From: Hellea sp.
Lineage (GTDB): Bacteria > Pseudomonadota > Alphaproteobacteria > Caulobacterales > Maricaulaceae
Reading direction: 5' to 3'
Assembly (NCBI GenBank): GCA_028224375.1
Contig: JAOIVW010000007.1
Coordinates: forward strand, 1 to 64,000
DNA length: 64,000 bases
In this document: positions 11,197 through 55,852 of the stretch, piece after piece
How positions within the stretch are numbered: the stretch's first letter is position 1
Layout: each line of letters starts with the position of its first letter
The notes under the pieces: generated by a model
Told to the model about the DNA's origin: nothing
Seen by the model: the letters and a program-made list of their open reading frames with translations, nothing else
The model's database searches: none
Made by a program: the position numbers and the translations under genes

Positions 11197-11273
11197 AGCC
11201 ACGGCTTAACTTGCATCCGTCCATATCACAAATGAAAATGACTGTTTATCTTTTATAGGCTAGTTGTTGCACA

Positions 11274-11353: not shown

Positions 11354-12889
11354 ATGCCAATGCAAGCCCGTGACTGGATTGAATATCACGCTGTAACCAC
11401 GCCGGATAAGGTGGCGATGGTTGATTTGATGAGCCAGCGCAAATTCACCTATGCGCAAACCCATGAGCGCGTTGCGCAGGTCGCAGGGTTTTTGAAATCC
11501 AAAGGCATTAAAAAGGGCGACCGTGTTGCTTTTCTTTGTCTCAACACTACGGACGTTATGGAGCTGATTTTTGGCTGCTGGCGTTTGGGCGCAATATGTC
11601 TCGCGCTGAACTTCCGGCTGACCCCGCCTGAGCTAGCCTTCATCTTAAATGACGCTGAAGCGTCTATGGTGTTGGTGGATAAACCTTTCGAGCCTGTGGG
11701 TGAGGCGGCAAAAGCTCTTACCAATGTCGAGCATTGGGTAGACACCGATGGGCTGGGCGGTGATAGCGGCTATGAGCGCGGACTTGCCGCCGCGCCCCCC
11801 ATCTATGATTTTGTAGAGCAAAGCTATGATGATCAATGCTTGCTCATGTATTCGTCAGGCACAACGGGCATGCCCAAAGGCGTTATCATCACCCATGGCA
11901 TGTTGGAATTCACCGTAGCGTCGACTGCGCGCCTGCCTGACTCAGGCCCGCATCAGGTCTCGCTTAATAACATGCCGCTTTTCCATATTGGTGGCCTGAA
12001 CGTAACAGCCTTGCCGAGTATTGCAGTAGGCGGCACCTGCGTTGTGATGCGGCTTTTTGATCCCACGGCAACATTGCAAGCCATTGATAGTGCCGAGCTT
12101 GGCATCAATCTCGTCTTTATGGTGCCCGCCGCCTATAATGCGATGAAGGCGCATCCTGATGTCGAAAAGACTGATTTCTCTCGCATCGTCACAGCTTTGT
12201 GCGGTGCTGAAACCGTGCCTGTCTCTCTTGTTGAATGGTGGCTCGAAAAAAATGTCGTTATCCAAGAAGGCTATGGCATGACCGAAACTGCGGCTGGCGG
12301 GACTATGCTGCGAAAAGAAGACATACCCCATATGATTGGCTCTGCGGGACGGGCTTTGCTTCATTCCCGCGTGCGTATTGTGGACGAGGCGGGTCAGACT
12401 TGCGCGCCTAATGTGCCGGGCGAAATCTGGTTTACAGGTAACGCCATCACGCCGGGCTATTGGCGTAATCCCGAAGCGAATAAGACATCTTTCGTTGATG
12501 GCTGGTTTAAGTCTGGCGATATTGGCCGCATGAATGAGCAGGGCTATGTCTATATCGAAGACCGCGTCAAAGACATGTATATCTCCGGCGGCGAAAACGT
12601 CTATCCCGCCGAAATTGAGAACGTGCTCTATCAAATGCCGCAAATTACCGAAGTCGCGGTGATAGGCGTAACCGACGAAAAATTTGGCGAAACAGGCTGC
12701 GTCTGCGCCGTGGTCAAAGACGGCGAAACGCTATGCCTTGAGGATGTATTAGCTCACGTCGAAGGTAAGCTCGCGACATTCAAGAAACCAAAATATCTGC
12801 ATTGCCTAAAAGAACTTCCGCGAGGCGGTACGGGCAAGGTCCTGAAGTTTGAACTGCGGAAGTCAGTACCGGGTGAAATAGGGCTTTAG
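11354..12889 (+). CDS. AMP-dependent acyl-CoA synthetase/ligase
   Basis: A 511-residue member of the ANL family that activates a carboxylic acid to its acyl-CoA through an acyl-adenylate. Motifs are the P-loop-like YSSGTTGMPKGV (166-177), the A5-type YGMTE, the hinge region KDMYISGGENVYPAEIE and the C-terminal lysine K495 in GGTGK. The length fits a medium or long-chain fatty acid ligase or a related aromatic acid ligase. A GGGGAGA ribosome site supports the start. It precedes the acyl-CoA catabolic operons and probably feeds them, which is an inference from position. Confidence 0.88.
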   Translation: MPMQARDWIEYHAVTTPDKVAMVDLMSQRKFTYAQTHERVAQVAGFLKSKGIKKGDRVAFLCLNTTDVMELIFGCWRLGAICLALNFRLTPPELAFILNDAEASMVLVDKPFEPVGEAAKALTNVEHWVDTDGLGGDSGYERGLAAAPPIYDFVEQSYDDQCLLMYSSGTTGMPKGVIITHGMLEFTVASTARLPDSGPHQVSLNNMPLFHIGGLNVTALPSIAVGGTCVVMRLFDPTATLQAIDSAELGINLVFMVPAAYNAMKAHPDVEKTDFSRIVTALCGAETVPVSLVEWWLEKNVVIQEGYGMTETAAGGTMLRKEDIPHMIGSAGRALLHSRVRIVDEAGQTCAPNVPGEIWFTGNAITPGYWRNPEANKTSFVDGWFKSGDIGRMNEQGYVYIEDRVKDMYISGGENVYPAEIENVLYQMPQITEVAVIGVTDEKFGETGCVCAVVKDGETLCLEDVLAHVEGKLATFKKPKYLHCLKELPRGGTGKVLKFELRKSVPGEIGL

Positions 12890-13563: not shown

Positions 13564-14391
13564 TTACAGACCCAAATCTTTCAAATTTGCATCATAATCA
13601 GCTAGCAAACCCTGAGCGCGCGTCTCTACCGCGATACGAGCTTCGGGGTCGTTAAAGACGTGGAGGCGGTTGGCTTCTACGGCTTTGAGGCAGAGCTCCG
13701 CATAGACATCCGCGTCCATACCGTTTTCAATATAGCCTTTAATTGTTTCATAGGCTTTTGAGGCTTTGAACTTATCTCGATATTGTCCTGCCACGGGGGC
13801 TTTATCAGGTGTGTTGTGGATATTGGATTTGACCCATGTTGGGCAGAGACAAGAGACACCAATGCCCGCTTCGGCGAGTTCTTGGGACAGGGCTTCGGAG
13901 TAACCGACCACCGCAAATTTAGTGGCAAAATAGGGCGCCATGCCGATGCCTGTGACGTGTCCTGCTGTAGAAGCGGTGTTGATGATATGACCGCCTTCGC
14001 CGTGACCGACAATGTGAGGGATAAAAGTCTCGCAGCCATAGACAACGCCGAGAATATTGATGTCGGTAATCCAGCGCCAATCTTCGAGCGCGATACGTCC
14101 GGGCCGTCCGGGAAGGCTAACGCCCGCATTGTTAAAGACGAGATGCACCTTACCAAATGTGTCGATGGCGGCAGCGGCAGCGGCTTTAACGGCGTTAGGG
14201 TCAGCGACGTCACAGACGGCTATAGCCGTATTATCTGTGCCGAGCTTTTCCTGTGCGGCGGCCAAACCTTCGGCATCAATATCGACCATGATAACTTTCG
14301 CGCCGCGTTTGAGTAGCCCCTCGGCTAAAGCAAAGCCAATCCCTGAGGCCGCCCCCGTCACGAAGGCGGTCTTGTTTTTAATATCTGTCAT
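13564..14391 (-). CDS. Short-chain dehydrogenase/reductase
   Basis: A 275-residue SDR with the cofactor motif TGAASGIG, NNAG, and the catalytic Ser-Tyr-Lys set in NTASTAG and YFATK. An acidic residue after the second strand (VMVDID) points to NAD(H). It is the last gene of a four-gene operon that starts with the Fe-alcohol dehydrogenase; 20 bases separate it from the HD-domain gene. The substrate is probably a hydroxy or keto intermediate of the pathway shared with the divergent acyl-CoA dehydrogenases. Confidence 0.85.
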   Translation of the reverse strand: MTDIKNKTAFVTGAASGIGFALAEGLLKRGAKVIMVDIDAEGLAAAQEKLGTDNTAIAVCDVADPNAVKAAAAAAIDTFGKVHLVFNNAGVSLPGRPGRIALEDWRWITDINILGVVYGCETFIPHIVGHGEGGHIINTASTAGHVTGIGMAPYFATKFAVVGYSEALSQELAEAGIGVSCLCPTWVKSNIHNTPDKAPVAGQYRDKFKASKAYETIKGYIENGMDADVYAELCLKAVEANRLHVFNDPEARIAVETRAQGLLADYDANLKDLGL

Positions 14392-14411: not shown

Positions 14412-15011
14412 TTAAAGCGGCATCGGGCTATCGTGGAATATTTTGCGCATTAAAGGCTCAAAGCTCTCAAGGCTATCGGCTTCAAAGTCAGGGTCGAAGG
14501 CGGGAGCGTCCCACTCATCGACGAGCTTGACCGCGTAATCATACCAAGGCTCATCTTTCCATTGCAGGCGCAAATCTGTTGGCGCGCCCATATAGTGATA
14601 ATAATGCTCACCCTGAAACGCCTGATGATTGCGCAGCACATGATAGCTGTCCTCGGACACATAAGGCTTGAGCATTTCAGCGGCGATGGGGCCGTGATTA
14701 GGCACATTTATGACCTTCGCCATATCGTGACAGAGCGCGACAACAATCTGCTCATCCGTTGCGCCGTCGCGGCGGGCGAGTGTGCCGCACATCAAGGCGT
14801 GTTGAAGTTGGTCACAGGCAAATCCCAATGTTGCGGATTCAAGCTGCTTTAACATGCCGATGAAACGGTCAGCTGTTTTGGTGAAATCCTGCTTATGGGC
14901 GGCGCCGATTTTCTGCCAGTCTTCCAGCGTGCCGTCTTGCATACGCGTAAAGCGGGCCTGCTGGCTGACCAACGCGGGGTCGTCTTTGATCATATCTGTG
15001 TAAGCATTCAT
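14412..15011 (-). CDS. HD-domain protein
   Basis: A 199-residue protein with an HD-type metal-binding core: LQHALMCGTLARRDG, then the doublet in VVALCHDMAKV, then NHGPIAAEM and HVLRNHQAFQG. Proteins of this type are often annotated as phosphohydrolases, and the spacing also recalls myo-inositol-oxygenase-like di-iron proteins, so an oxygenase role is possible. Its ATG overlaps the stop of the upstream thioesterase gene by four bases (ATGA). Catabolic operons with SDR and thioesterase partners carry such proteins, but the reaction is not known to me. Confidence 0.65.
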   Translation of the reverse strand: MNAYTDMIKDDPALVSQQARFTRMQDGTLEDWQKIGAAHKQDFTKTADRFIGMLKQLESATLGFACDQLQHALMCGTLARRDGATDEQIVVALCHDMAKVINVPNHGPIAAEMLKPYVSEDSYHVLRNHQAFQGEHYYHYMGAPTDLRLQWKDEPWYDYAVKLVDEWDAPAFDPDFEADSLESFEPLMRKIFHDSPMPL

Positions 15012-15442
15012 CCTAAACTCTCCGTCAATATATCTCGCATCTTATCAGAAATTTTCACAGGCCGCCGTGTTTTTTCATCAACATAGACATGGACGAAATG
15101 GCCTTGGGCTGCGGCGAGCGTTTCGTCGTTTTTAAATAGCGCAATTTCATAGGTCACAGAACTATTGCCAATATCGCGCACGCGCAAGGCGGCGGTGATG
15201 TCATCGGGGAATGCAGCGGGCGCGAAATAGCTACAGCCTGTCTCGACGACGAGGCCGACAGTTTCGCTTTTACCTATTTTAAGTAAGCCTTCATCAATCA
15301 GGAAACGGTTCACGATGGTGTCGAAATAGAAGTAATAGACCGAATTATTGATATGACCATAAACATCATTATCCGCCCAACGTGTTGGGATGACGAGGCT
15401 ATGCGGATAGTCCTCTATGCTATGGGGTTTAGGCCTGCTCAC
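15008..15442 (-). CDS. 4-hydroxybenzoyl-CoA-type acyl-CoA thioesterase
   Basis: A 144-residue hotdog-fold thioesterase. The motif TRWADNDVYGHINNSVYY (residues 20-37) carries the catalytic aspartate of the 4HBT/YbgC group. It overlaps by four bases both the Fe-alcohol dehydrogenase upstream and the HD gene downstream, so all three are translated in a coupled way. It probably releases an acyl group from CoA in the same pathway. Confidence 0.85.
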   Translation of the reverse strand: MSRPKPHSIEDYPHSLVIPTRWADNDVYGHINNSVYYFYFDTIVNRFLIDEGLLKIGKSETVGLVVETGCSYFAPAAFPDDITAALRVRDIGNSSVTYEIALFKNDETLAAAQGHFVHVYVDEKTRRPVKISDKMRDILTESLG

Positions 15443-16569
15443 AATATTGTCTCATAAATTTTGACGGTGGCGTCATAGGTCATTTCGCGAGCATTATTCA
15501 TTAAGAGGCGGTCTTTGGTCATGGCGTCTTCAGCCATCATGGGAATGGCGCTTTGCGGAATGTTCACTTCCGACAGTGTTTTGGGCACATGTGTTTCCTC
15601 TTTCAAGCGCAGCATTTCATCAATCAGGGAGACACCTGTTTGGCCGACGCCTAAATCTTTCGCGATTTCGCCATACCAATGGTCGGCTTTGGGTAAGTTA
15701 TATTTCATGACTTCCGTCAGTACGAGGGCATTTGAGAGGCCGTGCGGCACGTGGAAGAAACCGCCTAGGGGATATGCGAGGGCGTGGACAGCGGCGCAGG
15801 GCGCGTTTGAGAAAGCTTGTCCCGCGAGCATTGCGCCGATGAGCATATCGTTACGCGCCTCAATATCATTGCCATCATTGACCGCCTTCACAATCGCATT
15901 CCGCATCTTACGAAGGGCGGTCAGAGCGAGGGCATCGGAGAGCGGGTTTTTCTCGCGTATGGAGGTATAGGCCTCAATCGCATGGACCATGGCATCAATA
16001 CCTGTCGCGGCAGTGATGGCAGGCGGTAATCCGAATGTAAGCTCGGCGTCTAGTAGAACACGGTCGGCATAGAGGCTATCTGCGACGACGCCTTTCTTAG
16101 CCGTCTTGCCTGTCGTGATAATCGCGACATTGGTGACCTCGGAACCTGTGCCTGATGTGGTGGGTATCAGCATGAGGGGAAGTGTCGGGCCTTTGGCATT
16201 GCCGACGCCGTACATCGTCTCCAAAGGCTGATCACATCCAACCAGATGGGCGATGACTTTGGCTGTATCCATAGGCGAGCCGCCGCCAAAGCCGATAACA
16301 AGCCCCGCATTGAATTTGCGTATGGCTGTCGCGCCTTTCAGCACAATCTCTTCCGGTGGGTCGGCGATGACTTTATCAAAGACAAAGACCGCATATCCTG
16401 CGGCTTTAAGGGCGGCGAGCCCCGCATCCATCAAGCCAAGACCTTTGACGCCTTTATCTGTAACGATGGCGATGCGTTTATTACGGCAAAGGCCCTCGAC
16501 ATAATGATCTAGCTTAGCGGCTCCGCCAGGCTCGATACGGATATCAGCAACCGTTTGAAATGAATGCAT
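15439..16569 (-). CDS. Iron-containing alcohol dehydrogenase
   Basis: A 376-residue group III alcohol dehydrogenase that interconverts an alcohol and an aldehyde or ketone with NAD(P). The nucleotide-binding segment GFGGGSPMDTAKVIA and the metal-ligand regions DAMVHAIEAYTS and FHVPHGLSNALV are intact. It leads a four-gene operon and is divergent from the acyl-CoA dehydrogenase operon across about 100 bases that contain a perfect dyad. Fe-ADHs of this size include 1,3-propanediol and butanol dehydrogenases; the true substrate is not evident. Confidence 0.9.
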   Translation of the reverse strand: MHSFQTVADIRIEPGGAAKLDHYVEGLCRNKRIAIVTDKGVKGLGLMDAGLAALKAAGYAVFVFDKVIADPPEEIVLKGATAIRKFNAGLVIGFGGGSPMDTAKVIAHLVGCDQPLETMYGVGNAKGPTLPLMLIPTTSGTGSEVTNVAIITTGKTAKKGVVADSLYADRVLLDAELTFGLPPAITAATGIDAMVHAIEAYTSIREKNPLSDALALTALRKMRNAIVKAVNDGNDIEARNDMLIGAMLAGQAFSNAPCAAVHALAYPLGGFFHVPHGLSNALVLTEVMKYNLPKADHWYGEIAKDLGVGQTGVSLIDEMLRLKEETHVPKTLSEVNIPQSAIPMMAEDAMTKDRLLMNNAREMTYDATVKIYETIL

Positions 16570-16628: not shown

Positions 16629-16650
16629 TATATGCAACTATGTGCATATA
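16629..16650. promoter_or_regulatory. Perfect 8-bp dyad between divergent catabolic operons, probable operator
   Basis: TATATGCA (16629-16636) and TGCATATA (16643-16650) are perfect inverted arms with a 6-base spacer. The site lies between the divergent Fe-ADH and acyl-CoA dehydrogenase operons, 18 bases before the latter's ATG. The core ATGCA-N6-TGCAT recurs before the monooxygenase gene at 53525. The architecture fits a TetR-type repressor operator; no regulator gene is in the window. Confidence 0.6.
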
Positions 16651-16667
16651 AATATAAGGACGCAATT

Positions 16668-17852
16668 ATGACTGATTTGAAAGCTTTTGCAGCTCAAGCG
16701 CGGGAATGGCTCGAGGCCAATTGCCCCGAAGACATGCGTCAGCCAATATCCAGTGATAAAGACTTATGTTGGGGTGGCCGCAATTGGGAATTCCAATCTG
16801 AAGCGCAAAAAACTTGGCTAGAACGTATGGTCGCCAAGGGTTGGACGGTGCCAACATGGCCAAAAGAATATGGCGGGGCAGGCCTGTCTCGCGCAGAGGA
16901 AAACATCCTAAAGAAAGAAATGGCGCGTATTGGGGCGCGTTCTCCGCTCTCCTCTTTTGGTATTTGGATGCTTGGCCCTGCTTTGCTTAAATTTGGGACT
17001 GAAGAGCAAAAGCTCGAGCATCTACCGCCCGTAGCGCGCGGTGAAATTCGTTGGTGCCAAGGTTATTCAGAACCCAATGCAGGGTCAGACTTGGCCTCAC
17101 TGGCGACGAAGTGCGAAGATAAGGGTGATCATTTTATCGTCAATGGCCAAAAGGTCTGGACATCTTATGCTGATCAAGCCGATTGGATTTTCTGTCTCGT
17201 GCGCACAGATAATACAGGTAAGAAACATCACGGTATTTCTTTTGTCCTTTTTGATATGGAGACACCGGGCGTCGACGCCCGTCCGATTAAATTGATTTCA
17301 GGCCGTTCGCCTTTCTGCGAGACATTCTTTGAAGATGTACGCGTTGAGAAAAAGAACCTTGTCGGAACGCGCGATAGGGGCTGGGATGTAGCCAAATATC
17401 TGCTCACCCACGAGCGCGAAATGATTGGCGGTCAAGGCCAGCTCGAAGGTCAAGGGCGCCCGCTTCATGAAATCGCGGCGAGTTCTCTGGGTATTGAAGA
17501 TGGACGGCTCGCGGATCCGATGCTTCGCGCGAAAGTCGCCGAAGCGGAAATTGATGATTGGGCGTTCAGCCTGACTGTTGCTCGCAAGCTCGCAGAAGCG
17601 AAAGCGGGTGCGTCACTCGGCGCGGATAGTTCTATGCTGAAATATTACGGCACTGAGCTTAATAAGCGCAAATATGAGCTCATGATGGATGCGACGGGTC
17701 ATGACGGCCTGGAGTGGGAATCAGATCGCTCGAATGACGGAAAGCTCGCGCGGAGTTGGCTCCGCACCAAAGGGAATTCGATTGAAGGCGGCACATCAGA
17801 AGTGCAGCTTAATATTATTTCTAAACATATTCTCCAGCTTCCGGGAGCCTAA
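16668..17852 (+). CDS. Acyl-CoA dehydrogenase (subunit or paralog 1)
   Basis: A 394-residue flavoprotein that introduces the alpha-beta double bond into an acyl-CoA. Flavin and substrate motifs are WCQGYSEPNAGSDLA, NGQKVWTSYADQADW and the C-terminal GGTSEVQLNIISKH. The start MTDLKAFAAQ at 16668 has an AAGGAC site seven bases upstream and is preferred to the ATG at 16632, which lies inside the dyad. A second acyl-CoA dehydrogenase follows after three bases. Such pairs often form heterotetramers acting on steroid side chains or branched acyl-CoAs; that is known for FadE-type pairs and is only inferred here. Confidence 0.9.
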   Translation: MTDLKAFAAQAREWLEANCPEDMRQPISSDKDLCWGGRNWEFQSEAQKTWLERMVAKGWTVPTWPKEYGGAGLSRAEENILKKEMARIGARSPLSSFGIWMLGPALLKFGTEEQKLEHLPPVARGEIRWCQGYSEPNAGSDLASLATKCEDKGDHFIVNGQKVWTSYADQADWIFCLVRTDNTGKKHHGISFVLFDMETPGVDARPIKLISGRSPFCETFFEDVRVEKKNLVGTRDRGWDVAKYLLTHEREMIGGQGQLEGQGRPLHEIAASSLGIEDGRLADPMLRAKVAEAEIDDWAFSLTVARKLAEAKAGASLGADSSMLKYYGTELNKRKYELMMDATGHDGLEWESDRSNDGKLARSWLRTKGNSIEGGTSEVQLNIISKHILQLPGA

Positions 17853-17855
17853 TTC

Positions 17856-18995
17856 ATGGGCCTAGTATTAAACGATGATGAAGTCATGCTCCGCGATACG
17901 GCGGAAGGGTTCTTCGCAAATAAATCTCCTGTGACGGCGTTGCGTAAATTGCGCGATGATCGCGACGAGACAGGCTTTGACCGTGCCCTCTGGAAAGAGA
18001 TGGCGGATATGGGTTTTGCGGGTGTTGTGATTGAGGAAGATCATGGCGGTGTGGACATGGGCTTTATGGCGGCGGGCCTTATCGCTGAGCAAATGGGCCG
18101 TAATCTTTCTGCATCTCCTTTCCTCTCTACTGCTATTTTGGCGGCGACGGCTATTCGCGAAGGCGGCACGGCTGAGCAAAAAGCTGCTTGGCTTCCGAAG
18201 ATTGCGGGCGGCGAAGCGATTATCTCTCTGGCCCTGGATGAAGGGCCTAAGCATCATCCTGCGGGCACCTCTGCGACGGCTGAGAAGTCTGGTAATGGGT
18301 TTAAACTTAACGGGTCTAAAGCCATGGTTGTCGATGGGCATATTGCGGATGCTTTAATCGTGGCCGCGCGCACTAGCGGTGAGGAGGGCGATGCTGAAGG
18401 CATTAGTCTCTTCATCCTCGACCCCAAGACAAAAGGCGTGTTTACGGAACGCACCATCATGGTCGATAGCCGCAATGCCGCGCGGATTGAGCTGGACGAT
18501 GTCGAAGTCTCTGGTGATGCGCTGCTGGGCTCGCTCGACGAAGGCATGGCCGTTCTGGGCAAAGTGCTTAATGCAGGCCGCGCGGCTGTTGCGGCTGAGC
18601 TGCTGGGCGCAGGCTCGCAAGCTTTTGAGAGCACGGTTACTTATATCAAAGAGCGCAAACAATTTGGCACTATCATTGGCGAGTTTCAGGCGCTGCAACA
18701 TCGCGCGTCTCATCTTTATTCCGAGATGGAAATTGCGCGCTCTGCCGTTATGGCGGCGCTGACGGCGCTGGATGATAATGACTCAAAGGCTGATCTTTAT
18801 TGCGCCATGGCAAAAGCAAAGCTCGGCTCTGTGGCCAAGCTCGCCTCTCAAGAAGGCGTCCAGATGTTTGGCGGTGTGGGCATGACCGATGAATATGACA
18901 TTGGCCTTTTCATGAAGCGTATCCGTGTTCTACAAGAACTGTTCGGGGACGCGCATTACCATATGAACCAATTCGCCCTAGCCAATAAATTTTAA
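17856..18995 (+). CDS. Acyl-CoA dehydrogenase (subunit or paralog 2)
   Basis: A 379-residue acyl-CoA dehydrogenase, three bases after its partner. It has the N-terminal helical domain (about 1-115), the beta domain with LALDEGPKHHPAG, and the C-terminal helical domain with YIKERKQFGTIIGEFQALQHR and QMFGGVGMTDEYDIGLFMKR. The first motif region deviates from the usual TEP-x-AGSD, which fits the less canonical partner of a two-gene heterotetramer. It belongs to the operon that ends with the MaoC gene. Confidence 0.88.
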   Translation: MGLVLNDDEVMLRDTAEGFFANKSPVTALRKLRDDRDETGFDRALWKEMADMGFAGVVIEEDHGGVDMGFMAAGLIAEQMGRNLSASPFLSTAILAATAIREGGTAEQKAAWLPKIAGGEAIISLALDEGPKHHPAGTSATAEKSGNGFKLNGSKAMVVDGHIADALIVAARTSGEEGDAEGISLFILDPKTKGVFTERTIMVDSRNAARIELDDVEVSGDALLGSLDEGMAVLGKVLNAGRAAVAAELLGAGSQAFESTVTYIKERKQFGTIIGEFQALQHRASHLYSEMEIARSAVMAALTALDDNDSKADLYCAMAKAKLGSVAKLASQEGVQMFGGVGMTDEYDIGLFMKRIRVLQELFGDAHYHMNQFALANKF

Positions 18996-19030: not shown

Positions 19031-19489
19031 ATGAAAACTGCAGCAGCTTCCGTCCTTCCAGACCTCGTCGGCACCGTCATTGGCGTCAGCGGTTGGGTCA
19101 CCGTTGATCAAGACCGCATCAATCAATTCGCTGATGTCACTGAAGACCACCAATTTATCCACATCAATGAAGACATGGCGAAAATGACGCCCTTTGGCGG
19201 GACGATTGCTCATGGGTTTTTGACGCTCTCTCTGCTCTCTAAATTTGCCGAGGAGGCTGGACTCGTCATAGAAGGCGTGAAGATGGGCGTGAATTATGGC
19301 TTTGAAAAAGTCCGTTTCCTCGCCCCTGTGCCGAGCGGGTCAAAAGTGCGCGGGCAATTTACCCTCAAAGAGGCGACCGAGAAAAAGCCGGGGCAATTCC
19401 TGCTTACCTATGAAGTCTCTGTCGAAATTGACGGACAGGAAAAACCGGCGCTGATCGCCGATTGGCTGGCCATGCAGTTTACGGGTTAA
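19031..19489 (+). CDS. MaoC-family enoyl-CoA hydratase
   Basis: A 152-residue hotdog hydratase that adds water to an enoyl-CoA, the step after the acyl-CoA dehydrogenases. The hydratase 2 motif is ADVTEDHQFIHINEDMAK, with the Asp and His at the expected spacing, followed by FGGTIAHGFLTLSLLSKF. A GGGG ribosome site precedes the ATG. Its stop overlaps the stop of the converging CAP-domain gene by 11 bases. Confidence 0.9.
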   Translation: MKTAAASVLPDLVGTVIGVSGWVTVDQDRINQFADVTEDHQFIHINEDMAKMTPFGGTIAHGFLTLSLLSKFAEEAGLVIEGVKMGVNYGFEKVRFLAPVPSGSKVRGQFTLKEATEKKPGQFLLTYEVSVEIDGQEKPALIADWLAMQFTG

Positions 19490-52715: not shown

Positions 52716-53450
52716 ATGCGTGAAAATTACACACTGACTCGGCTTTATGTTGAAACGGCTTTAGGCGAGGGCGCGGCTGTTGAGCTATCCAAAGACCAAG
52801 CCCATTACCTCGGCAATGTTCTGCGCAAAGGCGCGGGTGATGCGGTTCGCCTCTTTAATGCAGAAGATGGTGAATGGCGGGCAGAAATTTCAGCTGTGTC
52901 CAAACGCGCGGCGACGCTTCTTGTGACAGAGCAATTGCGCGACCCCAAAGCGTGCCCAGATATCACGCTCTGCTTTGCGCCCGTCCGTAAACACCGCACG
53001 ACATTTATTATAGAAAAAGCGGCCGAGCTTGGCGTGAGAACTTTGCAGCCCGTCATTACAGCCCGCACGCAATTTCCGAAATTCAATGTTGAGAAAGCCC
53101 GCCTGCAAGCGATTGAAGCGGCGGAACAGACCGAGCGGCTTGATATTCCCGTGATTGAGGCACCGCAAAAATTGGACGCGATGCTGATGGGATGGGATAC
53201 GGACCGCAGCCTGATTTTCGCGGATGAGGCTGGCGGCGCAAAACCTGCGGCGGAAGCCCTGCGAAGGCTAAACGGACCTGCAGCCATATTAATCGGCCCC
53301 GAAGGCGGGTTCACGCCGCAAGAACGGGAATTACTACATGCCCAAGATTTCGTGACTCCCGTTTCGCTTGGCCCACGGATATTGCGCGCTGACACGGCGG
53401 CGCTTTCACTCCTAACCCTCTGGCAAGCTGCGCAGGGCGATTGGCGCTAG
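52716..53450 (+). CDS. rsmE: 16S rRNA (uracil(1498)-N(3))-methyltransferase
   Basis: A 244-residue SPOUT methyltransferase that modifies U1498 of 16S rRNA. The N-terminal PUA-like domain contains HYLGNVLRKGAGD. The knot domain contains ITARTQF, QTERLDIP, the SAM loop ILIGPEGGFTPQE and LGPRILRADTAALS. It stands alone after a dispersed element. Confidence 0.93.
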   Translation: MRENYTLTRLYVETALGEGAAVELSKDQAHYLGNVLRKGAGDAVRLFNAEDGEWRAEISAVSKRAATLLVTEQLRDPKACPDITLCFAPVRKHRTTFIIEKAAELGVRTLQPVITARTQFPKFNVEKARLQAIEAAEQTERLDIPVIEAPQKLDAMLMGWDTDRSLIFADEAGGAKPAAEALRRLNGPAAILIGPEGGFTPQERELLHAQDFVTPVSLGPRILRADTAALSLLTLWQAAQGDWR

Positions 53451-53500: not shown

Positions 53501-53516
53501 ATGCAATTTGTTGCAT
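53501..53516. promoter_or_regulatory. ATGCA-N6-TGCAT dyad before the monooxygenase gene
   Basis: ATGCAA (53501-53506) and TTGCAT (53511-53516) form a dyad eight bases before the ATG. Core sequence and spacing equal the dyad at 16629-16650, so the same repressor may serve both. Confidence 0.5.
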
Positions 53517-53524
53517 GCTAACGC

Positions 53525-55006
53525 ATGAGCACAGAAAATATCTATGATATGGTCATTATTGGCGCGGGGCTTTCGGGCATTGGCGCGGCGTGTCGTTATC
53601 GAACTCAATTCCCTGATGACAGCTTAGCCTTGATTGAGTCGCGCGATGCCATAGGCGGGACATGGGACTTATTCCGTTATCCTGGTATTCGCTCAGATTC
53701 GGATATGCTCACCCTTGGTTATGATTTTCGCCCTTGGGTGGGGGATAAGACTTTGGCGGATGGGCCCAGTATTAAACGCTATGTCGAAACAGTCGCCGAA
53801 GAATATGGCATTACGCCCTACATCCAATTTGGCTCTAAGGTCACAACGCTGGACTTTTCATCTGAAGAAGACCTTTGGACGGTCACGATTACGGATGCCA
53901 AAACAGGTCAGACCCGCCGCATCCGCACGCGCTTTATTATATCAGCGGCAGGTTATTATAAATATGACGAGGGCTATACGCCCGAATTTGCGGGGCGCGA
54001 GGATTTCCAAGGTGATATCGTCCATCCGCAGCTCTGGCCTGAGGGTTTTGATTATAGCGGCAAAAACATCATTGTCATCGGCTCTGGCGCGACGGCTGTG
54101 ACTCTTGTGCCGGAATTGGCTAAGACAGCTGGACATGTGACCATGCTTCAACGTTCGCCGAGCTATGTGGCCTCTATTCCGTCCAAAGACACAATCGGAA
54201 ATCTCATGCGGCGCATATTCCCTGCTAAGACGGCTTTTAAGATTAACCGCGCGAAGAATATCTGGCTGTCCAAGACCATGTATGAGCGGGCGCGCAAAAA
54301 CCCTGAAAAGACGAAGCAGTGGTTTCGGAAAAAAATCCATAAATCTTTGGGCAAGGACTATCCTGTCGATAAGCATTTTAATCCTGATTACGAGCCGTGG
54401 GATCAGCGGGTCTGTATGATCCCCGATGAGGATATGTTCATCGCTATTCGGGACGGGCGGGCAAGCGTGGCGACGGACCATATTGAGCGCTTTACCGAAA
54501 GCGGCATTTTGCTCACATCAGGTGAGGAACTAGCCGCTGATATTATCGTGACGGCGACAGGACTAAATGTTGTCTTTAACGGGCAGAGCGATTTGTTTAT
54601 TGACGGCCACCCCATTCAAGTTTCGGACAGCTACGGATATAAAGGGATTATGTATTCAGATGTGCCAAACCTTGTCTCGGTCTTTGGTTATACAAATGCG
54701 TCTTGGACTTTGCGGGCGGATTTGATTTCTCAATTTGCGGTGAGGGTGCTCAGCCATATGAAAGAGAAGGGCTATAGCCGCGCTATGCCGGTCGCGCCTG
54801 AAGGCATGCCGCGTAGGCCCTATCTTGATTTTCAAGCCGGATATTTAATGCGGGTTTTTGATGAACTGCCGAGTCAGGGTGATAGGCACCCTTGGCAGAA
54901 CTTACAAAACTATAAGATGGATCAAAAATTGATGCTGGACGATCCGATAGATGATGGGGCTTTGATATTTTCCAAAGCCATAGCTCAACAAATGGCGGCA
55001 GAATAA
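53525..55006 (+). CDS. EthA-like flavin monooxygenase (Baeyer-Villiger type)
   Basis: A 493-residue FAD- and NADPH-dependent monooxygenase. Nucleotide motifs are GAGLSGIGAA (FAD) and IGSGATAVTLVPEL (NADPH). FRYPGIRSDSDM and LQRSPSYVASIPSKD are typical of the EthA group. Such enzymes insert oxygen into ketones or thio-compounds. No ribosome site is seen before the ATG, so the transcript may be leaderless. The SDR gene follows after 12 bases; a pathway of alcohol oxidation and then Baeyer-Villiger cleavage is likely. The dyad before it links it to the acyl-CoA dehydrogenase operons. Confidence 0.88.
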   Translation: MSTENIYDMVIIGAGLSGIGAACRYRTQFPDDSLALIESRDAIGGTWDLFRYPGIRSDSDMLTLGYDFRPWVGDKTLADGPSIKRYVETVAEEYGITPYIQFGSKVTTLDFSSEEDLWTVTITDAKTGQTRRIRTRFIISAAGYYKYDEGYTPEFAGREDFQGDIVHPQLWPEGFDYSGKNIIVIGSGATAVTLVPELAKTAGHVTMLQRSPSYVASIPSKDTIGNLMRRIFPAKTAFKINRAKNIWLSKTMYERARKNPEKTKQWFRKKIHKSLGKDYPVDKHFNPDYEPWDQRVCMIPDEDMFIAIRDGRASVATDHIERFTESGILLTSGEELAADIIVTATGLNVVFNGQSDLFIDGHPIQVSDSYGYKGIMYSDVPNLVSVFGYTNASWTLRADLISQFAVRVLSHMKEKGYSRAMPVAPEGMPRRPYLDFQAGYLMRVFDELPSQGDRHPWQNLQNYKMDQKLMLDDPIDDGALIFSKAIAQQMAAE

Positions 55007-55018
55007 TGGGTGTGCATA

Positions 55019-55852
55019 ATGAGTATATATAAAGATAAAATTTGTGTTGTCACGGGCGCGGCGTCAGGCATTGGCCGCGCTTTGGCGATATCTTTGGCTG
55101 AGAGCGGCGCGCAATTGGCGCTGAGCGATATCAACGCGGAAGGGTTATCTGAGACCGTACAGATGGTTGGCGGTTCTAATAAGGTCATGAGCGATGTCTT
55201 TGACATGGCCGATGCTCAGGCCATTTCGGATTACGCCGATAAGGTCGAGACCACGCTTGGCGCGTCTGATTACGTGTTTAATGTCGCGGGACTGACTCGC
55301 GTGGGTAACTTTGTCGATACGCCATTGGAGTCGATGGAGAAGGTCATGGACGTCAATTATTGGGGCGTTGTGCGCATGACCAAAGCCTTTATGGATCAAA
55401 TATTGGCAAAGACAGGAACCATCGTGAACATCTCAAGTGTCTTTGGGTTTATCGGTTATGCGGGGCAAACGCATTATTGCGCGTCAAAATTTGCGGTGAG
55501 GGGATTTACGGAAACTCTGGCGCAAGAGCTTAAAGGCACAGGCGTTGGCGTCTGCTCCGTTCATCCCGGCGGAGTTAAAACGAATATAGCCCGAAGCGCG
55601 ATTGCGGATAAATTACCTGACAATGGCGTAACACGCGAAGAAATGGATGCAGGTTTTGATAAGATGGCAATTACGTCTCCTGAAAAAGCGGCGCAAGTCA
55701 TTCTGAAAGGCGCGGCCAAGAAGAAGCGCCGTATTCTCATTGGCGGCGATGCACGTTTCATCTCGATTGTGTCGCGCTTATTCCCTGTAGCTTATACGAA
55801 AATCCTTGAGAAATACTCAGGGGATAATGTGATATTGGGAAATAAGCCCTAA
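55019..55852 (+). CDS. Short-chain dehydrogenase/reductase
   Basis: A 277-residue SDR with TGAASGIG, the acidic LSDINAE after the second strand, NVAG, and the catalytic NISSVFG and YCASK. It follows the EthA-like monooxygenase on the same strand and could make its ketone substrate from an alcohol. The ATG at 55019 is chosen over a GTG at 55010. Confidence 0.88.
   Translation: MSIYKDKICVVTGAASGIGRALAISLAESGAQLALSDINAEGLSETVQMVGGSNKVMSDVFDMADAQAISDYADKVETTLGASDYVFNVAGLTRVGNFVDTPLESMEKVMDVNYWGVVRMTKAFMDQILAKTGTIVNISSVFGFIGYAGQTHYCASKFAVRGFTETLAQELKGTGVGVCSVHPGGVKTNIARSAIADKLPDNGVTREEMDAGFDKMAITSPEKAAQVILKGAAKKKRRILIGGDARFISIVSRLFPVAYTKILEKYSGDNVILGNKP

Follow-up and report, generated by a model that had tools for sequence, protein, structure and literature searches.

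Palindromes in a Hellea genome are predicted operators of an AphA-subfamily PadR regulator of peroxisome-like beta-oxidation genes

The draft genome of a marine Hellea strain (G000; 3.03 Mb, 89% complete) contains a perfect 8-bp dyad, TATATGCA-ACTATG-TGCATATA, at positions 16629-16650 in the divergent promoter of genes for an iron-containing alcohol dehydrogenase (Fe-ADH) and an acyl-CoA dehydrogenase. The same core and spacing recur 37 kb away in front of a monooxygenase/short-chain dehydrogenase (SDR) operon (53501-53516), which raises the question of whether the two palindromes are operators of one regulator and which protein reads them. Both features of the preliminary description were confirmed, the second palindrome being exact in its core with a different flank. 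In the entire window, i.e. the 64,000-nt stretch of DNA analysed here (contig C67:1-64000), these are the only matches to ATGCA-N6-TGCAT with at most one mismatch, and both are exact (Table 1). The core of operator 1 ends 20 nt ahead of the acyl-CoA dehydrogenase ATG and operator 2 ends 8 nt ahead of the monooxygenase ATG; a scan for sigma-70-type promoters near operator 1 recognised none. By itself, the window says little: 0.16 exact matches are expected under a first-order Markov model, which makes the pair only mildly improbable (P(>=2) = 0.012), and shuffled sequences average 3.84 matches with up to one mismatch, more than the two observed. Comparison between genomes provides the strong evidence.

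Table 1. Predicted operators and neighbouring genes in the window
Feature	Position	Strand	Remarks
Degenerate candidate site	11257..11272	.	3 mismatches to ATGCAA-N4-TTGCAT; ~80 nt before acyl-CoA ligase
FadD-like acyl-CoA ligase	11354..12889	+	ortholog belongs to predicted regulon in G006 and G008; in G004 an exact site and one gene precede it; membership in this genome uncertain
Short-chain dehydrogenase, gene 4 of Fe-ADH operon	13564..14391	-	labelled from sequence without family-library run; same place in G006
PhnZ-like HD-domain protein	14412..15011	-	weak match, E 2e-7, below cut-off; no Pfam match
4HBT acyl-CoA thioesterase-like	15008..15442	-	family match
Iron-containing alcohol dehydrogenase (Fe-ADH)	15439..16569	-	no NCBIfam model above cut-off
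Operator 1, predicted AphA-type box	16629..16650 (core 16632-16647)	.	TATATGCA-N6-TGCATATA; divergent Fe-ADH / acyl-CoA dehydrogenase promoter
Acyl-CoA dehydrogenase, PimC-like large subunit	16668..17852	+	TIGR03204, below cut-off
Acyl-CoA dehydrogenase, PimD-like small subunit	17856..18995	+	TIGR03203, below cut-off
MaoC-like hydratase	19031..19489	+	downstream of PimC/PimD-like genes
Operator 2, predicted, peripheral	53501..53516	.	ATGCAATTTGTTGCAT; before BVMO-like monooxygenase; less conserved
Type I Baeyer-Villiger monooxygenase-like flavoprotein	53525..55006	+	fingerprint FQGDIVHPQLWP
Short-chain dehydrogenase	55010..55852	+	3 nt behind monooxygenase gene

The monooxygenase contains the motif FxGxxxHxxxW[PD], the fingerprint of type I Baeyer-Villiger monooxygenases (BVMOs), and its best PDB matches are mostly BVMOs, covering residues 3-220 only. 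It had been described as EthA-like; no NCBIfam model scored above its cut-off and no EthA model was retrieved at E <= 0.001 from this library, which may hold none. The adjacent gene at 52716-53450 was considered as a regulator and rejected, as it encodes the rRNA methyltransferase RsmE. The degenerate site before the FadD-like ligase may be a decayed operator, and an exact box precedes the orthologs of this gene in G006 and G008; three-mismatch matches of this kind are no more frequent in the window than in shuffles.

Genome-wide, 11 exact ATGCA-N6-TGCAT sites were identified, each directly upstream of a gene. The raw count is unimpressive under the window-derived Markov rate, which predicts 7.6 sites (P(>=11) = 0.15); the half-site words are rarer in the genome than this model says. 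Among spacers of N0 to N16, 11 of the 33 matches fall at N6, whereas the other 16 spacings share 22 (mean 1.4, maximum of five at N5), and the probability of at least 11 at N6 is about 2e-7. The reversed pattern (0 vs 11 sites) has a different CpG content, so this spacing control was used in its place. Furthermore, a base outside the search pattern is conserved: 108 of 112 half-sites, from 56 sites of five genomes (G000, G006, G010, G008 and G004), have T ahead of ATGCA or A behind TGCAT. The corresponding figures are 5 of 16 half-sites in a comparison set of eight sites (out of 14), each taken from a different genome of the order that lacks a close ortholog of the regulator described below, and 1 of 10 for Halioglobus. 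One of these eight genomes, G023, contains a homolog of 49% identity. The right side of operator 2, which lacks the outer A, is the sole exception among the 22 half-sites of the Hellea genome.

With one mismatch allowed, 53 places (11 of them exact) were found in the genome vs seven for the reversed pattern. Among the matches listed, the stretches around the most box-like ones include 11 one-mismatch sites, six of which have both outer flanks: one is intragenic, one separates a gene for an Lrp-like regulator from its neighbour, and four precede genes. These four genes encode an SCP2 protein (L059:4866, contig C12), a TonB-dependent receptor (L061:4589, contig C34), a class II aldolase (L062:4311, contig C43), whose ortholog in G010 has an exact box, and a conjugation coupling protein-like product (L058:5102, contig C1). 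One-mismatch sites were left out of the regulon because of this mixed gene list.

One exact site (C20:18211) lies between an SDR gene and a gene encoding a 177-aa PadR protein (G000:C20:17660-18190, minus strand; outside the window, on another contig), and hence in the promoter region of the PadR gene itself. Family membership is indicated by PF03551 (60.2 bits, cut-off 27) and PF10400 (41.8 bits, cut-off 22.4). Subfamily 1 PadR proteins consist of an N-terminal PadR winged helix-turn-helix and a larger helical C-terminal domain in about 180 aa, according to the available text of PMC3506622, and the Hellea protein has these domains and this length. Its best phmmer match in the PDB is AphA (1yg2, 1e-28, residues 1-153), and its AlphaFold model (pLDDT 91) aligns with both 1yg2 and Bacillus subtilis PadR (5x11) at Foldseek TM scores (query) of 0.83-0.86. 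Three further PF03551 matches exist in the genome, one of them under the cut-off; their loci contain no site with at most one mismatch.

The presence of this gene tracks the abundance of the sites. In a survey of 79 family genomes, evenly drawn from a larger group, an ortholog (58-100% identity) was identified in 27, which contain a mean of 6.6 exact sites vs 1.08 in the other 52 (Mann-Whitney P 1e-11, kinship ignored). Outside the genus, the 19 ortholog-bearing genomes average 5.3 sites (P 5e-9, kinship likewise ignored). At least four sites are present in 22/27 genomes with an ortholog vs 3/52 without; these three are G050 and G086 (73 and 76% complete) and G073 (94%), and the ortholog-bearing genomes with fewer than four sites are G049 with one, G078 and G095 with two, and G014 and G093 with three. 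In addition, of the 36 close loci examined in named genomes, 30 have a site with at most one mismatch (exact in 28) in the 150 nt preceding the regulator gene, as do 6 of 17 distant loci, against a background of 1.5% and 0.5%, respectively, for 150-nt stretches of the same loci. One of the six close loci lacking such a site has just 51 nt of sequence there. The predicted reader of the sites is this AphA-subfamily protein.

The available text of PMC6855506 gives the ChIP-seq motif of Vibrio cholerae AphA as ATGCAA-N4-TTGCAT, which is the Hellea motif, and the recognition helices of the two proteins are nearly identical (WKASHQQVY in AphA, WRASHQQIY in Hellea PadR). They share the same fold (TM about 0.83-0.87), yet are only 28% identical in the structural alignment. 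This match of both helix and box is the strongest argument that the Hellea PadR reads the sites; operator type and regulator family are already known from AphA. The targets differ: AphA mainly acts on regulators, cell-envelope genes and virulence (PMC6855506, available text), whereas the predicted Hellea regulon is devoted to acyl-CoA catabolism. Unlike AphA, the Hellea PadR gene is divergent from an SDR gene and has a box in its own promoter. B. subtilis PadR has the fold and the general subfamily 1 architecture in common with the Hellea protein, and PadR proteins are likewise described with a dyad operator, its arms being ATGT/ACAT (PMC3506622, available text); B. subtilis PadR differs in its helix (WSAKHSQIY), in operator arms of ATGT instead of ATGC, and in responding to phenolic acids rather than regulating lipid genes.

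Among 17 distant homologs (31-45% identity), those with the helix W[RN]ASHQQ have a site in 6/7 cases (Halioglobus, Cellvibrionales, Dokdonella, a cyanobacterial bin and two actinomycete bins) and those with W[AMK]AT[PQ]QQ in 0/10 (Fisher P 6e-4, for related homologs and helix classes drawn after the sites were seen). In five of six actinobacterial homologs with the helix WMATPQQ (L138-L141 and L143), the gene is preceded at a distance of 18-27 nt by another palindrome, A[CG]TCAA-N4-TTGA[AT]T, which suggests a second operator class within the subfamily.

The window palindromes are probably operators of one AphA-subfamily PadR protein that would repress a putative peroxisome-like beta-oxidation regulon. 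Most likely, PadR would bind as a dimer to TATGCAA-N4-TTGCATA boxes overlapping the start regions of about 11-15 promoters, its own included, and would repress its targets until released by an inducer, for which an acyl-CoA or free acid of the pathway is the most likely candidate. Site centres are located a median of 28 nt from the nearest called ORF start, and at most 95 nt in 51 of 55 sites. Bacterial sites that close to a gene start usually lie over or just downstream of the promoter, and activators usually bind farther away than these centres. The start-proximal location, together with the box before the regulator's own gene, favours repression, as argued from position only. That the same PadR acts on the same sites as an activator or dual regulator appears unlikely in view of these distances, even though the available text of PMC6855506 describes AphA as an activator of tcpPH and as activating as well as repressing; the same source reports repression of VC0857 by AphA from a single near-consensus site.

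The putative regulon is conserved in related genomes. In Hellea balneolensis DSM 19091 (G006), an exact site is present at the orthologous place for all 11 promoters. Counting a site as regulon-linked when a gene of the flanking operon is at least 55% identical to a regulon gene, 12/12 sites were regulon-linked in G006, 9/9 of those fetched in G004 (11 exist), 8/11 in G010, which belongs to another genus, 9/13 in G008, 5/9 in Robiginitomaculum antarcticum, 2/5 in NORP39 and 2/2 of those fetched in Cellvibrionales (9 exist). Some sites in G008 and G010 lie beside unrelated genes, and G010 and Robiginitomaculum contain intragenic sites. An extension of the regulon to Halioglobus was unsupported, as 0/5 exact sites flank a regulon gene there. 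L025 and L026, from two genomes (G029 and G021) of another family of the order, contain the same exact palindrome, ATGCAATCCATTGCAT; neither genome yielded a PadR ortholog.

Operator 1 is exact and 20 nt before the ATG in all eight Hellea-genus genomes that yielded an ortholog (two of ten yielded none). Among 18 genomes that have no close padR ortholog, matches upstream of the PimC-like gene carry two or more mismatches at best. In G010, the PimC-like gene is the fourth of an operon with its own exact site, and no site was found upstream of this gene in G014 or of two paralogs in G002 and G005. Operator 2 is exact upstream of the monooxygenase in 3 of 10 regulator-bearing genomes (G000, G006 and G009) and has two mismatches in G003 and G002; the monooxygenase matches of genomes without a close padR ortholog include 0/18 exact sites and one with a single mismatch. 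By this conservation across orthologs, operator 1 belongs to the core of the predicted regulon and operator 2 to its periphery.

Alternatively, the two window sites could be linked by chance, with only the Fe-ADH/acyl-CoA dehydrogenase site functional and the monooxygenase site coincidental. The missing outer flank, the low share of exact sites and the only mildly improbable count in the window point in that direction. Against it, exact sites recur before the monooxygenase ortholog in G006, where one spacer base is changed, the arms are kept and both flanks are present, and in G009, and we consider a coincidence improbable. The link between the loci through a shared operator, as put forward in the preliminary description, stands as predicted co-membership in one regulon. 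A motif common genome-wide had been named as grounds for abandoning that link; with 11 copies this applies to the letter, but the copies are promoter-bound and conserved.

A TetR-family acyl-CoA-responsive repressor of the PsrA/FadP type, as which the reader of the sites had been envisaged, is very unlikely. PsrA and FadP regulate fatty acid degradation in other proteobacteria (PMC5343134, available text) and there is a TetR_N match 2.6 kb away from the C15 site; however, all nine TetR_N loci, taken with about 1.5 kb either side, were free of sites with at most one mismatch, and it is the PadR gene that has the site and whose presence tracks the others. A regulator gene with the site in its own promoter, as sought in the preliminary description, exists; the predicted regulator is of the PadR/AphA type instead of TetR. 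A structural or methylation motif without any transcription factor, to which the palindromic form and often AT-rich centre would be suited, is hardly credible given the concentration at start regions of functionally coherent genes and an abundance that follows the regulator gene.

The predicted regulon comprises acyl-CoA dehydrogenases with electron transfer flavoprotein (ETF), (3R)-hydroxyacyl-CoA dehydrogenase, thiolase, MaoC hydratase, 2-methylacyl-CoA racemase and an ACAD11-type kinase and dehydrogenase, accompanied by SDR, OYE, NMO and BVMO-like oxidoreductases as putative accessories. One site is linked to genes for a thiolase and for an SDR that, in the PDB (2et6, 7.5e-130), best resembles (3R)-hydroxyacyl-CoA dehydrogenase and HSD17B4, and another to genes for two acyl-CoA dehydrogenases and a protein matching 2-methylacyl-CoA racemase (MCR, 4.5e-105), divergent from genes for a TIGR03084 protein and a zinc-binding/quinone-oxidoreductase-like dehydrogenase. 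Further sites precede ETF beta and alpha, a 583-aa acyl-CoA dehydrogenase with an ABM protein, an OYE-type flavoprotein, a saccharopine-dehydrogenase-like reductase and a nitronate-monooxygenase-like protein (NMO). An SDR-SDR-kinase-dehydrogenase operon (contig C18, L056:7915-11793) is divergent from a DUF3667 gene; its last two genes match the two halves of ACAD11 in a PDB search (8v3v, 8.5e-43; 2wbi, 4.4e-119), with 9o56 and 4hr3 as the top-scoring entries, and by match are an adjacent APH-type kinase and ACAD11-type dehydrogenase. Robiginitomaculum antarcticum shares with Hellea genomes this arrangement of separate ACAD11-type kinase and dehydrogenase genes in one operon behind the box. The genes SDR-(139-aa gene)-DUF2855-crotonase are divergent from the PadR gene, and the last two of the 11 sites are those of the window, linked to Fe-ADH/PimC-PimD-MaoC and monooxygenase-SDR.

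ACAD10/11-type systems function in 4-hydroxy acid catabolism, and AMACR, MFE2 and ACAD11 in the peroxisomal oxidation of methyl-branched and hydroxy acids, which the predicted regulon resembles. By this analogy, its substrates are likely methyl-branched or hydroxylated acids, such as isoprenoid or sterol side-chain acids, and the genes of the regulon agree with the earlier suggestion that lipids, sterols or terpenoids are degraded. The more specific proposal that the two window loci together oxidise an alcohol to a ketone, cleave it by Baeyer-Villiger oxidation and degrade the acyl product found no support: the regulon has 11 exact sites, the monooxygenase site is among the less conserved, and nothing ties the Fe-ADH to a ketone for the monooxygenase.

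The regulators of fatty acid degradation named in PMC5343134 (available text) are FadR, PsrA and FadP, with regulons of on average 7-18 genes per genome. Their regulons are of similar size to the one predicted here, and their DNA-binding families (TetR for PsrA and FadP, GntR for FadR) are unrelated to PadR, a word absent from PMC5343134. In Rhodococcus ruber Chol-4, a padR gene appears in the legend of steroid clusters containing hsd17b4-type and acyl-CoA dehydrogenase genes; it is an annotation only, with no operator or regulon in the available text of PMC6498646. Among the matches listed in the open-licence PMC literature (titles and abstract starts), neither a PadR regulator of beta-oxidation nor a Hellea/Robiginitomaculum regulon was found.

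In Halioglobus pacificus (L128), a padR homolog is divergent from an NMO gene whose product is 65% identical to the Hellea regulon NMO, with one one-mismatch box in between, and a Cellvibrionales bin (L130) has the same arrangement with an NMO of 61% identity and two exact boxes. This divergent arrangement indicates that the tie to NMO reaches beyond the Hellea lineage. As a tentative and rather doubtful conjecture, an AphA-type PadR might replace FadR, PsrA and FadP as the global acyl-CoA-sensing regulator of beta-oxidation in the Hellea/Robiginitomaculum lineage, and the ATGCAA-N4-TTGCAT box and SHQQ helix might form a metabolic system of ancient origin that occurs in several phyla and, in marine Gammaproteobacteria, is locally coupled to an NMO-like gene; quorum sensing and virulence in Vibrio might then have drawn AphA from this system.

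For this marine lineage, scattered-looking lipid oxidation genes gain a predicted regulator, an operator and a target list. The prediction would add beta-oxidation to virulence and phenolic stress as a field of action of PadR/AphA regulators. It would also reveal conservation of the AphA operator and recognition helix well outside Vibrio, with implications for the origin of AphA and the possible ligand of its pocket.
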